Below, piece by piece: positions 5,910 to 24,294 of a stretch of 36,989 bases of DNA (the stretch's first letter is position 1; each line of letters starts with the position of its first letter). Origin of the DNA: Bacteroidota bacterium (GTDB lineage: Bacteria > Bacteroidota > Bacteroidia > Chitinophagales > Chitinophagaceae); NCBI GenBank assembly GCA_018267535.1, contig JAFDYH010000195.1, positions 1 to 36,989 on the forward strand, in the 5' to 3' direction. The position numbers were made by a program, and so were the translations under genes. The notes under the pieces are model-generated. The model saw nothing but the letters and a program-made list of their open reading frames with translations. It did no database searches and was not told the origin of the DNA.

Positions 5910-7244
5910 ATGAAACTATTCCTATTATACCTGCCACTTTGCTGGCTTGCCATGTCTTGCAATCCTGAGAAAGAAAGATTGCCTGAAGATTATGAGCTGG
6001 CTACTGCATGGGCTGATATGGCGAATTATATAACAAAGAATACGCCGGCAAATTCCCCCACTTTCGCATCCCGCTGTTTTGGCTATATCGGTTTAACGAT
6101 GTATGAATCGGTTGTTAATGGCTACCCGGAATATGAGTCTGTGGCTTCCCAGTTAAACGGTTTGGGCCCACTTCCAATACCGGAACCCGGGTTAAACTAT
6201 AACTGGAAATTGTCGTTAAATGCAGCGGAAGCTGAAATCCTTCGCAGTATCTATATGCAGACATCCGGTATCAATAAGAACAAGATTGACTCATTGGAAA
6301 AACACTTTGAAAATCTTTTTAGTACTACATATAATAATGACTCGGTTATTAAACGATCTATTGAGTATGGTAAGAAAATAGCGCAATTGATATTTGAGTG
6401 GTCGAAATCGGATGGAGGCCATCGTGGCTACCTTAACAATTTTGATAAAAACCTTGTTTTTGACCAGAAACCGGGTTGTTGGCAACCTCCTTTGTATGCA
6501 CAATCATTCAGTCATTTTCCATTGCATCCCTATTGGGGAAAAAACCGGGCTTTCCTGGCTATTGATTCTGCAGTTACCGCACCCGTATTCATACATTTTG
6601 ATACATTACAAAGTTCTCCATATTACCAACAGTTTATTAAGGTATACGAAACAAATAAGGAGCTTACACAGGAACAAAAAGAAACCGCTATCTGGTGGAG
6701 TGATGATCCGGATGTGACCTTCACGCCACCCGGGCACTCTTATTTTATCGGAACGATTGCTATACGGAAAACAAAACCATCATTAATTAAATGTGCAGAA
6801 ACCTATGCCCGCATAGGCATGGCCGTTGCAGATGCTTTTCGCAATTGCTGGAAATGGAAGTATCAGTTTTTTACTGAACGGGCCAATACTTATATTCCGC
6901 AGCATATCGATCAGCATTGGGAGTCTTTCTGGCCTGATCCTCCTTTTCCTGCATTCCCTTCCGGTCATGCTATACAGGCTGCCGCTGCTGCAACAGTTAT
7001 GACCGATTTATACGGGGATAATTTTTCTTTTATTGACAGCTCTCATGTTGGCCGGCCAAGAGATGAAATACGAAAAGCAGATTTTAAAGCCAGGCATTTT
7101 AGTTCCTTCTGGCAAACCGCTGAAGAAACTGCTATGTCAAGATTGTATGGTGGTATTCATACACCACAGGATAATGAGAGAGGCCTGGAAAAAGGAAAAG
7201 AAATTGGAAATAATATAAACCGGCTACGATGGAAAAAGACCTGA
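5910..7244 (+). CDS. Vanadium-dependent haloperoxidase / PAP2-superfamily lipoprotein
   Basis: A 444-residue protein of the vanadium haloperoxidase and acid-phosphatase superfamily. Such enzymes either oxidise halide with peroxide using bound vanadate or hydrolyse phosphate esters with the same pocket. The oxyanion site is complete: K317 and R324 (K-x6-R), P350-S-G-H353, and R411-x5-H417 in SRLYGGIH. The residue after R324 is Ala rather than the Pro seen in many members. The N-terminus is a short lipoprotein signal with Cys17 (LAMSC), so it is probably anchored on the periplasmic or outer face. It is 16 bases after one CRTAC1 gene and 18 before another. Haloperoxidase versus phosphatase activity cannot be decided from sequence; the long helical N-terminal half and overall size favour the bacterial haloperoxidase branch. 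Confidence 0.88.
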   Translation: MKLFLLYLPLCWLAMSCNPEKERLPEDYELATAWADMANYITKNTPANSPTFASRCFGYIGLTMYESVVNGYPEYESVASQLNGLGPLPIPEPGLNYNWKLSLNAAEAEILRSIYMQTSGINKNKIDSLEKHFENLFSTTYNNDSVIKRSIEYGKKIAQLIFEWSKSDGGHRGYLNNFDKNLVFDQKPGCWQPPLYAQSFSHFPLHPYWGKNRAFLAIDSAVTAPVFIHFDTLQSSPYYQQFIKVYETNKELTQEQKETAIWWSDDPDVTFTPPGHSYFIGTIAIRKTKPSLIKCAETYARIGMAVADAFRNCWKWKYQFFTERANTYIPQHIDQHWESFWPDPPFPAFPSGHAIQAAAAATVMTDLYGDNFSFIDSSHVGRPRDEIRKADFKARHFSSFWQTAEETAMSRLYGGIHTPQDNERGLEKGKEIGNNINRLRWKKT

Positions 7245-7262
7245 TTATTATTTACTAACGAT

Positions 7263-8942
7263 ATGTTACCGAAACTTACCTTACTTCCCTGCTTACTTTT
7301 TTTTAGCCTTAACATTCTTTGCCAGAAACGTTTTACAGATATTACAGCAAAGGCAGGGATCCATCATGTATTTAAAGTTTATGAAGGCATGTTTGGCGGG
7401 GGCGCCTGTGTGTTTGACTATAATAACGATGGAAAAGAAGATGTATACATTACAGGCGGAATGAACGATGATGTATTGTACAGGAACAATGGCGATAGCA
7501 CTTTTACTAACGTTTATGAACAATCCGGAATAACGGGTACAAAAAATTTTGTTACACAAGGAGTGTGTGCTGCCGATATAAACCGCGATGGCTTTGTCGA
7601 TCTTTTTATAACGACCATTACAAGGAGAGATAGAAAAGAAGCTATCCCCCGCGCCATCAATCTTTTATTTCTGAATAATGGGAACGGAACATTTCGTGAT
7701 GTAACAAAAGAATATGGCCTGGATGAAATGTATTCGTTCAGTACCGGCGGAAGTTTTGGAGATTTTAACGCCGATGGATGGCCGGATTTGTATGTGGGTA
7801 ATTACTTTAATGACTACACCGGTAAGCTGAGCGTTATTAATGACGAAACGGTTGTGGCCTCTAATCAAATTGCCAAAGGATATTTATTGTTAAATGAAGG
7901 GGGCAAACGATTCCGGGATGTATATACAGACTATGGGCTGGACTATAAAGGATTTGGGTTTGGCGGTGTTTTTACGGACTTTGATAACGATGGAGACCAG
8001 GATTTATTTGTTAATCATGATTTTGGTTATAAACGTACAGCTGATATGTTGCTGGAAAACCTTTACCCGAAAAAAATGTTTTTAGATGTTGCCAAAGAGA
8101 AAGCAATGGACTTGCGCATCAATTCAATGGGAACGGCAGTAGGAGATTATAATAATGATGGCTGGATGGATTATTATATCACCAATATCCGTTTTAACGC
8201 TTTTATGGTTAACCAGGGAGCTGGTAAACCTTTTTTAAATAGATCCAATGAATTGGGCACAGGGTTTAATTCTATCAGTTGGGGAGCTAATTTCGCCGAC
8301 TTTGATCAGGATGGAGATGTAGACTTGTTTGTTGCAAACGGAGATCTTAATCCAAATTGCCGGCCCTTGCCGGATTTCTATTTCGAAAATAAAGGCTCAA
8401 AGTTTGAGGAGCTGGCATCTATCTATGGTTTATCTGGTTATGGAATAGGCCGCGGTTCTGTCGTCTTTGATTATGATAATGATGGCGATCTTGACCTGCT
8501 TGTAGTAAACCAGGAAGCTGTAGCGGAGTATCCTGTTCCTTCGGTTACAACATTATACAGGAATGATTCTGCAAAGGGGAACTGGATAAAAATTGCATTG
8601 AAAGGAGTGCAGGCAGAAACACATGGCATAGGCTCAAAAATAGAGATTGAAGTGAATGGGAAAAAGATGATACGGGAAATAGACGGAGGTGGATCCAGTC
8701 ATTTATCGCAAAACTCTGTCATTGCTCATTTTGGCCTGGCAGATGCTAAAAAGATTGATAAAATTACTGTGTACTGGACAGGAGGAAATCAGCAATCACT
8801 GACGGCAGTACCCGTAAATCAATTACTGACGATTCAGGAAATACCGCAAAAGAAAGAAAACCATCTTCTGCTTTTTGCACTGGCAGGTTTTTTTATTCTT
8901 TTTCTCTTTTTTATCTTCCTGAGGAAGACAGGTGCTATTTAA
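7263..8942 (+). CDS. CRTAC1-family protein, single propeller + ASPIC/UnbV, C-terminal membrane anchor
   Basis: A 559-residue protein with a Sec signal peptide (MLPKLTLLPCLLFFSLNILCQKR) and seven calcium-loop repeats, for example DYNNDGKED, DFNADGWPD, DFDNDGDQD, DFDQDGDVD and DYDNDGDLD. These predict one seven-bladed VCBS propeller. An ASPIC/UnbV domain follows at about residues 440-528 (HGIGSKIEIEV..HFGLADAKKIDKITVYW). It ends in a single hydrophobic helix (about 534-553) followed by RKTGAI, so it may be held in the membrane by its C-terminus. That differs from the lipid-anchored paralogue two genes upstream. It is 18 bases after the haloperoxidase-like gene and is the last gene of the run. 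Function unknown; the pairing suggests it acts with the neighbouring enzyme. Confidence 0.9.
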   Translation: MLPKLTLLPCLLFFSLNILCQKRFTDITAKAGIHHVFKVYEGMFGGGACVFDYNNDGKEDVYITGGMNDDVLYRNNGDSTFTNVYEQSGITGTKNFVTQGVCAADINRDGFVDLFITTITRRDRKEAIPRAINLLFLNNGNGTFRDVTKEYGLDEMYSFSTGGSFGDFNADGWPDLYVGNYFNDYTGKLSVINDETVVASNQIAKGYLLLNEGGKRFRDVYTDYGLDYKGFGFGGVFTDFDNDGDQDLFVNHDFGYKRTADMLLENLYPKKMFLDVAKEKAMDLRINSMGTAVGDYNNDGWMDYYITNIRFNAFMVNQGAGKPFLNRSNELGTGFNSISWGANFADFDQDGDVDLFVANGDLNPNCRPLPDFYFENKGSKFEELASIYGLSGYGIGRGSVVFDYDNDGDLDLLVVNQEAVAEYPVPSVTTLYRNDSAKGNWIKIALKGVQAETHGIGSKIEIEVNGKKMIREIDGGGSSHLSQNSVIAHFGLADAKKIDKITVYWTGGNQQSLTAVPVNQLLTIQEIPQKKENHLLLFALAGFFILFLFFIFLRKTGAI

Positions 8943-21174: not shown

Positions 21175-21729
21175 TTATTTAATGCAAGCCTTATCTTTCA
21201 TCACGCTCATGCCACCAGACATATTGATTACGTTGCGAAAGCCATGTTGTGTTAGTATATAACTTGCCCTTGGGCTGCGATGACTGTGTGAACAATAAAC
21301 AATTATTTCTTTTTTCTTCAGGTGATTGATTTCTCCAATCCGGGTTTCTAATTCCTGCACCGGTATATTGATTGAATTTTTAAGAACACCAAAGTTTGGA
21401 TCCGCCTTCTCTTCGAACTCTTCTCTGGTGCGCACGTCCAGCAATATTGTATTGGAGTGGCTGCTGATGTAGTTACAAATATCAGCAGGACTTATTTCTT
21501 TAAACCTAATGGTGGCTTTTTTTACCAGCGGCATCTGGCAATGGGGGCATTTGCCAGTTTGTGTAAAAGAACTATTATCACATTCATTACCGCAGGGCAG
21601 GCATTGATATGCGCCCTTCCCTTTTGCAACGCTTACACGCTCTGCCTGTGAGAAGGAATTATCAGAAGCAATTAAAAAAGAAAAAATACTGAATATAAGT
21701 TTGAGAACAGCAACTAATGTGATTTTCAT
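21175..21729 (-). CDS. Secreted rhodanese-like protein with N-terminal Cys-rich (zinc-ribbon/heavy-metal-binding-like) segment
   Basis: A 184-residue exported protein. A signal peptide (about 1-28) is followed by a Cys-rich stretch with CLPC at 43-46 and CPHC at 61-64, as in heavy-metal-binding domains of efflux proteins. A rhodanese domain occupies about 76-180 (ILLDVRTREEFE, INIPVQEL, VYCSHSHRSPRASYIL, GFRNVINMSGGM). The catalytic Cys146 is intact. Rhodaneses move sulfane sulfur, for example from thiosulfate to cyanide or a protein thiol. The periplasmic location and metal-binding segment suggest sulfur or metal handling at the envelope. It is the first gene of a pair with the nitrilase. 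Confidence 0.92.
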   Translation of the reverse strand: MKITLVAVLKLIFSIFSFLIASDNSFSQAERVSVAKGKGAYQCLPCGNECDNSSFTQTGKCPHCQMPLVKKATIRFKEISPADICNYISSHSNTILLDVRTREEFEEKADPNFGVLKNSINIPVQELETRIGEINHLKKKEIIVYCSHSHRSPRASYILTQHGFRNVINMSGGMSVMKDKACIK

Positions 21730-22863: not shown

Positions 22864-23946
22864 CTAATTTGTGAATTGTACCGAGTAAATCATCGGGAGA
22901 TAGTTGCTCAGAACCTGCCAGCTTTCACCACGGTCAGGTGAAAAAAACAAATTGCCTGTTGTTGTACCAAATACTAAGGCATTACCAGATGAAGCTAATG
23001 CATGCCGGTAAACAATATCGAAACAATTTTCCTGCGGCAAGCCTTTCCTTAATTCCTTCCAGGTTTTGCCACCGTCATCTGTACGGCAAATACAAAGAGC
23101 ACCTTTTATTGCTGTTCTGGTCATATCGCTGTTTGCAGGCGCTACCCATGCTTGTTCAGCATCATCATCTGCAACAGCTATTGCGAAACCAAATTTTGCC
23201 GGTCCTTCCGGCTGCCCTATATCTACCCAGTTTTTTGCCCCATCAGTTGAACGAAATATTCCGCAGTGATTTTGTTGCCACAGAATTTCAGGATCAGAAG
23301 GGGCTGCTACTAATATATGAGGATCATAACCAGTTTCTGCATTCGGATCAGGAAGAAAATCAGCATGCATTCCTTTATTTCTAATTATCCATGTTTTACC
23401 GGCATCTATAGTTTCAAATACACCTGCACAACTTATTCCTATATGGATACGGTTTTCATCGCGGGGATCAACAACGATAGAATGGATGCCGGGCTGATCT
23501 CTTCCGCCGCCAAACCAACCTTCTTTCCGGGTGGGATGATTCCATAATGATTCGACGAGATGAAAATTATTCCCTTCGTCCTCGCTTAAAAACAATCCAC
23601 CCGGATCTGTGCCAATCCATAAGCGGGAAAGAAAGTTTTTGCCCCCATTAGCCATGGACCATATATACCGTGTCGTGGCCGGTATGCCTTCTTTTATTTC
23701 TTTTCCTTCAGGGTATGCTGGCGCCTTTATTTCTTCCCATGTCAGGCCCCTATCTTTCGAGCGGTGAAGTTTAACTCCCCAATGTCCATGGTCCAGGCAG
23801 GCCCACCATGTACCAGATCTTTCATCAGCATAAGCAATGGAAACAGGTTGGCCCTCAAATGAAAGATTTTCTACCTGCCAGCGGTTGTTTGAAAAATGAT
23901 AAGCTATAAATCCTTTCCGCGTGCCAAGCAATACTGTTGGTTTCAT
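22864..23946 (-). CDS. Cytoplasmic BNR/Asp-box beta-propeller (sialidase-like fold, WD40/YVTN/BNR-like)
   Basis: A 360-residue beta-propeller with no signal peptide. Six Asp-box repeats of the S/T-x-D-x-G-x-T-W type start near residues 63, 121, 179, 233, 289 and 336 (SKDRGLTW, SEDEGNNF, TIDAGKTW, STDGAKNW, TDDGGKTW, SPDRGESW), predicting six blades. I see no complete sialidase active site (no RIP/arginine triad), so hydrolase names often given to this family are doubtful. The start MKPTVLLGTRKGFIAY matches a stand-alone family. It begins 54 bases after the MoaD/ThiS-like gene on the same strand, so both are probably in one transcript. Function unknown. Confidence 0.88.
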   Translation of the reverse strand: MKPTVLLGTRKGFIAYHFSNNRWQVENLSFEGQPVSIAYADERSGTWWACLDHGHWGVKLHRSKDRGLTWEEIKAPAYPEGKEIKEGIPATTRYIWSMANGGKNFLSRLWIGTDPGGLFLSEDEGNNFHLVESLWNHPTRKEGWFGGGRDQPGIHSIVVDPRDENRIHIGISCAGVFETIDAGKTWIIRNKGMHADFLPDPNAETGYDPHILVAAPSDPEILWQQNHCGIFRSTDGAKNWVDIGQPEGPAKFGFAIAVADDDAEQAWVAPANSDMTRTAIKGALCICRTDDGGKTWKELRKGLPQENCFDIVYRHALASSGNALVFGTTTGNLFFSPDRGESWQVLSNYLPMIYSVQFTN

Positions 23947-24000
23947 AACCCTGAATTTTATACTGGTAAAAGATTGTATACTACGGTTGCGCTGCTGTTT

Positions 24001-24273
24001 TCATCCTCCCGATAATGCCTGCATTATATAAATTTCACTATCCTTATTAAATGGATCACTCAAAGTGGTACGGTCATTAATCAATTTACCGTCAATAAAT
24101 ATATTCACATGTTTTCGTAAAATGCCCTGGTCGTCTACTATATAACTTCGTATGCCGGGATATTCTTTTTCCAACTCCTCCAATACTTCCTGTAGGGTTT
24201 CACTTTTTGCAGAAGTATCTTTAAGTGTTTTGAAAAATCTTCTCAACGCATATGTAAATTTCACGGTTGGCAT
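24001..24273 (-). CDS. MoaD/ThiS-family ubiquitin-fold protein with C-terminal Gly-Gly
   Basis: A 90-residue beta-grasp protein. Features are the N-terminal strand VKFTYALRRFF, a helix with LEELEKEYPGI, the HVNIFIDGKLIN strand, and the C-terminus IYIMQALSGG, ending exactly in the Gly89-Gly90 that is adenylated and thiocarboxylated in sulfur carriers. MoaD and ThiS donate sulfur for molybdopterin or thiazole synthesis, and archaeal SAMPs are conjugated to proteins. No moaE, moeB, thiF or thiG gene is present here, so the classical pathways are not supported by context. Its immediate partner is the BNR propeller. Confidence 0.9.
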   Translation of the reverse strand: MPTVKFTYALRRFFKTLKDTSAKSETLQEVLEELEKEYPGIRSYIVDDQGILRKHVNIFIDGKLINDRTTLSDPFNKDSEIYIMQALSGG

Positions 24274-24286
24274 TCTTATAAAGTTA

Positions 24287-24294
24287 CAAACTTA
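24287..24294 (-). promoter_or_regulatory. Candidate -7 promoter element for the MoaD-BNR pair
   Basis: The minus strand reads TAAGTTTG, a full TAnnTTTG match, only 13 bases before the ATG at 24273. The predicted transcript would have a leader of about 5-10 bases. No good TTTG -33 element is found at 19-21 bases, so confidence is limited. Confidence 0.35.

Follow-up and report, generated by a model that had tools for sequence, protein, structure and literature searches.

A conserved pairing of a ThiS/MoaD-family protein with an Asp-box propeller in bacteria: a possible sulfur carrier and its acceptor

A small ThiS/MoaD-family protein ending in Gly-Gly and the Asp-box beta-propeller encoded next to it in a Chitinophagaceae genome are almost certainly functional partners, probably in the delivery of sulfur or the tagging of proteins, as judged from their pairing across bacterial phyla. 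The reading of this partnership that we prefer, to which we would give marginally less than an even chance, is that of a carrier and its acceptor, in which the E1-activated tail of the small protein docks on the propeller and sulfur is handed on. The features on which the analysis turns are given here by their positions in the window, i.e. the whole stretch of 36,989 nucleotides that was analysed.

24001-24273, minus strand: ThiS/MoaD-family small protein, 90 residues (PF02597 score, 74-row family alignment and model)
24004-24021, minus strand: its C-terminal QALSGG, identical in 72 of 73 homologues and QSLSGG in one
24109-24117, minus strand: its nearly invariant R53-x-H55 (within LRKHV), Arg in 99% and His in 100% of the family
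24287-24294, minus strand: TAAGTTTG, a possible Bacteroidota -7 element 5' of the small gene, not significant alone
22864-23946, minus strand: Asp-box propeller, 360 residues, apparently cytosolic, seven blades by homology to 3b7f
23770-23772, minus strand: Lys59, in 78 of 78 linked propellers, 9 of 9 unpaired clade members and 0 of 6 outgroup propellers
23317-23325, minus strand: DPH motif (D208, P209, H210), Asp and Pro specific to the linked clade, His common to all
23263-23277, minus strand: QQNHC motif (224-228) in the B-C turn of blade 4, with Q225, N226 and H227 invariant
23116-23118, minus strand: Arg277, top-face loop of blade 5, invariant
23002-23007, minus strand: Arg314-His315, the Arg invariant throughout and the His restricted to the linked clade

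The two proteins

The first-pass annotation of this DNA described a 90-residue reading frame ending SGG, followed 54 bases later by a propeller with six Asp boxes, no signal peptide and no full sialidase site. Both reading frames are exactly as described, 54 bases separating the stop codon of the small gene from the propeller's start. The small protein is a member of the ThiS/MoaD superfamily, as it scores 35.3 bits against PF02597 (Pfam ThiS; curated cut-off 22.5), and its model has a beta-grasp-like secondary structure with high pLDDT. Among NCBIfam profiles its best match is SAMP1 (NF041918), at 45 bits and so under the curated cut-off of 60, and the MoaD equivalog TIGR01682 gives no match. 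A family profile separates its homologues, which score at least 97 bits, from other ThiS/MoaD proteins, which reach at most 68. Gly89-Gly90 is invariant in all 73 linked-clade homologues, and the His of R53-x-H55 is absent from the CysO and MoaD proteins of the window's own genome.

The six Asp boxes of the propeller lie at residues 63, 121, 179, 233, 289 and 336. Such repeats are a mark of GH33 sialidases that is also common to non-sialidases; a FRIP-like motif is absent from the propeller sequence, and the match to BNR_2 falls under the Pfam cut-off. No signal peptide is evident at the N-terminus (MKPTVLLGTRKGFIAY). At the level of sequence, the pairing with a carrier, the missing sialidase motif and the missing signal peptide together argue that the propeller would be neither secreted nor a sialidase. 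The solved structure 3b7f (Reut_B4987 of Ralstonia eutropha, function unknown) belongs to the same full-length propeller family, matching residues 6-358 with an E-value of 3.5e-60, and ranks first in a Foldseek search with the propeller model (TMt 0.89); it was counted as seven-bladed in a 2009 survey (PMC2716378). It differs in being only about 35% identical to the window propeller and in having no Lys59 in the pairwise alignment. We rejected identity as a sialidase or other glycosidase on the absence of the FRIP motif and on this best structural match having no known function. A phage or defence gene was likewise rejected, with no match in phage records, PADLOC or viral contigs.

Conservation and surroundings of the pair

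To follow the pair across genomes, seeds were taken from a sample of 148 genomes; these were three relatives in Bacteroidota, two of them adjoining a small gene ending ALSGG, and they were aligned with the window propeller. A propeller scan of 84,980 species, with the small gene not in the query, returned 380 relatives, and the best 80 of these together with the three seeds gave 83 loci. In 73 of these 83 loci (best 80 of 380 plus seeds) the small gene directly precedes the propeller gene in the same orientation, the two being separated by a median of 23 bases. The paired loci come from eight phyla: Bacteroidota, Chloroflexota, Verrucomicrobiota, Planctomycetota, Poribacteria, Gemmatimonadota, Eisenbacteria and Myxococcota. 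The pair was found too in beta- and gamma-proteobacteria (Mitsuaria, Burkholderia, Cupriavidus and a Pseudomonas aeruginosa replicon) and, with the gene order reversed, in the Actinomycetota Arthrobacter and Nonomuraea, and it spans at least nine bacterial phyla. The distances between carriers and those between propellers correlate with a Mantel r of 0.63, the maximum in permutations being 0.26. The first-pass annotation had the pairing occur in other genomes too and proposed a neighbourhood survey across phyla as the check; the survey bears this out, the pair being specific and conserved beyond close relatives. That a sialidase-like glycosidase merely stands next to an unrelated MoaD, as the exo-alpha-sialidase label of these propellers in databases might suggest, is scarcely credible given a pairing kept over nine phyla, the absence of the FRIP motif and the BNR_2 score under the cut-off.

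The ten loci without an adjoining small gene include one outgroup (L007) and two (L097, L104) in which a contig end cuts near or inside the propeller. Of nine genomes that were checked, seven (those of L046, L050, L051, L083, L096, L099 and L104) have a family-type small gene at another place, and these unpaired loci support the carrier-propeller link. The displaced small gene adjoins a propeller in three cases (L124, L125, L127); in L129, L131 and L132 no propeller was detected next to it. Some Saprospiraceae-type genomes (L046; L080/L124) hold two clade propellers and one detected carrier gene, and therefore a single carrier may serve both. The module is sporadic, being present in about 3 of 148 Bacteroidota, window included, while in Chloroflexota a family member occurs in the centre genome only, among 151 genomes; such an occurrence would fit horizontal spread.

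Two individual loci deserve mention. The carrier of Nonomuraea gerenzanensis, directly 3' of its propeller (L117:5072-5383), ends in PALA and has no Gly-Gly, which reflects either a sequence error or a loss of the tail chemistry. On the Pseudomonas aeruginosa plasmid pZYPA1927 (L116) the pair is accompanied by a sigma factor, rhtA and PmpM, and this part of the plasmid looks as if it came from a chromosome. In strain PAO1 the pair is presumably PA1355/PA1356, as deduced by counting back from PmpM (PA1361). A transcriptome paper states that PA1356 promotes colonisation and biofilm (PMC11538994); if PA1356 is the propeller, this claim may rest on the sialidase label.

Two further elements of the window had been mentioned alongside the pair in the first-pass annotation. 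The TAAGTTTG element ahead of both genes is present but is only a candidate promoter of the small gene, because the window has four copies where 2.4 would be expected, which is not significant, and because the TTG just 11 bases 5' of it is closer than the usual -33/-7 spacing of Bacteroidota promoters. The nearby rhodanese gene also exists (21175-21729); its product begins much like a signal peptide, has an N-terminal segment rich in Cys and contains a CSHSHRS loop that resembles an active site. Its association with the pair is coincidental: a single weak match (L066) among the 83 loci places it outside the module, and as it is not kept beside the pair in related loci we rejected it as the sulfur donor.

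Carrier tail, propeller face and a plausible source of sulfur

The genome of the window contains three ThiS-family genes: a CysO-like gene in a cysM-mec-cysO-moeZ operon (contig C67), a MoaD gene adjoining the genome's one MoaE (contig C346) and the small gene of the window. Since CysO and MoaD/MoaE have operons of their own, the window protein is a third carrier; CysM and Mec adjoin another ThiS-family gene and MoaE partners another MoaD. It resembles CysO as a ThiS-family carrier with a GG end, and the CysO operon holds the genome's only detected E1 and is joined to the pair in L078, but CysO ends in AIAGGNL rather than QALSGG, and the window protein coexists with it and has no CysM or Mec as neighbour. 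In MoaD-MoaE, too, a small carrier and a larger partner are encoded side by side, although here the partner is a beta-propeller and the genome has its own MoaD-MoaE. SAMP1 and the archaeal MoaD-type modifiers give the best NCBIfam similarity, yet below the cut-off and with no archaeal-type context.

As had been noted at the outset, no MoaE, ThiG or E1 is reported in the window. A single E1 was found in the genome. It is encoded in the CysO operon, is MoeZ-like, with MoeZ as its nearest NCBIfam model, and bears a C-terminal rhodanese domain with HCKVGGRS. Any E1-dependent step must use this protein, with the reservation that the assembly is 91% complete and a further E1 gene could sit in the missing part, and its rhodanese domain is a plausible source of sulfur. 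Elsewhere E1 genes adjoin the pair itself at three loci: in L078, the clearest case, the order is cysM-mec-cysO-moeZ-carrier-propeller, in L059 an E1 gene lies just 5' of the pair and in L039 one lies just 3' on the opposite strand. These genes and the invariant C-terminus support, in broad terms, the earlier proposal of a carrier or modifier that works together with the propeller.

The propellers linked to QALSGG carriers fall into one well-supported clade, separate from alphaproteobacterial, actinobacterial and L007 propellers, and carry invariant polar residues on their top face. Conservation there is 3.31 bits in the B-C turns and 2.83 in the D-A loops, compared with 2.17 and 2.43 at the bottom, for blades assigned by hand from the strands of the predicted model. 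Lys11, His210, Gln225, His227, Arg277 and Arg314 are common to the linked clade and the outgroups, whereas Lys59, Asp208-Pro209, Trp223, Cys228 (nearly invariant), Asp310, His315 and Thr329 are specific to the clade and are retained in its unpaired members too. From its distribution, Lys59 is a candidate functional or acceptor lysine.

We infer activation, docking and sulfur transfer by the pair. The MoeZ-like E1 would activate the small protein at its C-terminal glycine, most likely giving a thiocarboxylate; the QALSGG tail would then dock on the conserved His, Arg, Lys and Asn residues of the top face; and the sulfur would pass to a small molecule or cofactor held on the propeller, comparable with transfer from MoaD to MoaE or from CysO to CysM. 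Docking of an E1-activated tail is the more probable part of this scheme, while the choice of sulfur transfer over tagging is evenly balanced. Other Asp-box proteins (GH33 sialidases, GH74, Ycf48, sortilin) share the fold and the boxes, and two of them bind protein tails: the sortilin propeller binds peptide C-termini within its tunnel (PMC3115958), a precedent for docking of the carrier tail, and Ycf48 binds D1 via an arginine patch, with the C-terminal tail of D1 wrapping round it (PMC10403576). The window propeller differs from this group in lacking a sialidase motif, in being apparently not secreted and in its link to a carrier. For AlphaFold the two proteins were joined by reading through the in-frame stop, TGA being taken as Trp in the case of the window; 23 other loci allow the same. 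In two such tethered pairs the domains folded with no confident docking (pTM 0.77 and 0.74); the tether blocks the free C-terminus.

In the main rival reading the E1 would charge the small protein and the Gly-Gly end would be joined to Lys59 or Lys11 of the propeller, a ubiquitin-like modification that switches it on or off, or the propeller would be an adaptor through which other proteins are modified. Every propeller of the linked clade has Lys59 and no outgroup propeller does, Lys11 is invariant in all, the nearest NCBIfam model (though under its cut-off) is an archaeal modifier, and the genome encodes a JAB-type desampylase-like peptidase. We consider modification unlikely nonetheless, since the JAB gene is part of the CysO operon, no recurrent E2- or E3-like neighbour of the pair was seen, and Lys59 could equally be catalytic. 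The Nonomuraea partner without Gly-Gly, together with the simple docking of a C-terminal peptide by sortilin, would fit a different arrangement, a non-covalent complex in which the propeller has the small protein as a subunit, structural or regulatory, and the tail is a docking peptide only. Such a role may hold in some lineages; as a general account it is rather less likely than modification, because the invariance of Gly89-Gly90 exceeds what docking should need and E1 genes adjoin the pair at three loci.

Molybdenum-cofactor context and significance

Most pairs have no recurrent neighbours and most, the window's included, have no molybdenum-cofactor (Moco) neighbour. Locally we observed an ADP-ribosylglycohydrolase-family gene 3' of the pair in five Chloroflexota loci (L107, L109, L110, L111, L112), a DUF4301 gene (cluster c16) immediately 5' of the carrier gene in one sub-clade (L075, L085, L093), and a gene for a protein of about 600 residues 3' of the propeller in three Saprospiraceae loci (L062 at 6746-8521, L069, L077), the L062 product having no Pfam match.

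A Moco context, which was no part of the first-pass annotation, nevertheless appears around the pair in other genomes. In L055 the order is mocA-moaA-x-carrier-propeller-coxG-xdhC; in L061 a Mo-hydroxylase flanks the pair on one side and a molybdopterin oxidoreductase on the other, and MOSC, moaC, moaE, moaD and mobA follow farther out; and in G149, G150 and G152 the distance from XdhC to the small gene is about 1 kb or less. A Moco, molybdoenzyme or E1 gene is present at 17 of 83 loci compared with 1 of 51 control regions drawn from pair-bearing genomes, an enrichment that is inflated by three query-source loci; p is 0.009 without these and 0.049 when one XdhC lineage is also collapsed. MoaE occurs in 21 of 21 pair genomes tested against 53 of 148 phylum genomes, and within Bacteroidota in 13 of 13 against 50 of 145 (p 2.8e-6, uncorrected for kinship). 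These neighbours, from XdhC, CoxG, MocA and MoaA to the hydroxylase and oxidoreductase, would suit a sulfurase devoted to the terminal sulfido ligand in molybdenum enzymes of the xanthine-dehydrogenase family and in formate-dehydrogenase-like enzymes. In G128, however, which is 99% complete and carries the pair and MoaE, no Mo-hydroxylase, XdhC or FdhD was detected, which speaks against a function confined to sulfido-molybdenum enzymes; we rejected that specificity and regard the sulfurase as quite improbable. More broadly, the substrate of the pair may tentatively be placed in Moco metabolism. We hold a molybdenum link to be possible, if short of likely, and the fullest version of the preferred reading, in which a ubiquitin-like carrier, once activated by the E1, supplies an active site on the propeller in or beside Moco metabolism, to be doubtful.

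No paper linking MoaD/ThiS with a BNR propeller was found in the open-access literature; propellers are not mentioned in Iyer 2006 and figure in Burroughs 2007 only in the abbreviation list. The folds are known, while the carrier-propeller combination, the invariant tail and the conservation across phyla appear to be undescribed. Annotated records name the pair 'MoaD/ThiS family protein' with 'exo-alpha-sialidase' or 'hypothetical protein', and the sialidase label is misleading to readers. Our understanding of the ThiS/MoaD carriers characterised so far comes from the enzymes that they partner, and we know of no other sulfur carrier with a propeller as its acceptor enzyme; if the preferred reading is true, this would be the first. 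A third, widespread carrier with an invariant tail and a propeller dedicated to it would mean an undescribed pathway of sulfur transfer or protein tagging in culturable bacteria, the pair genes being present in Cupriavidus, Burkholderia, Pseudomonas aeruginosa, Reichenbachiella and Puia.
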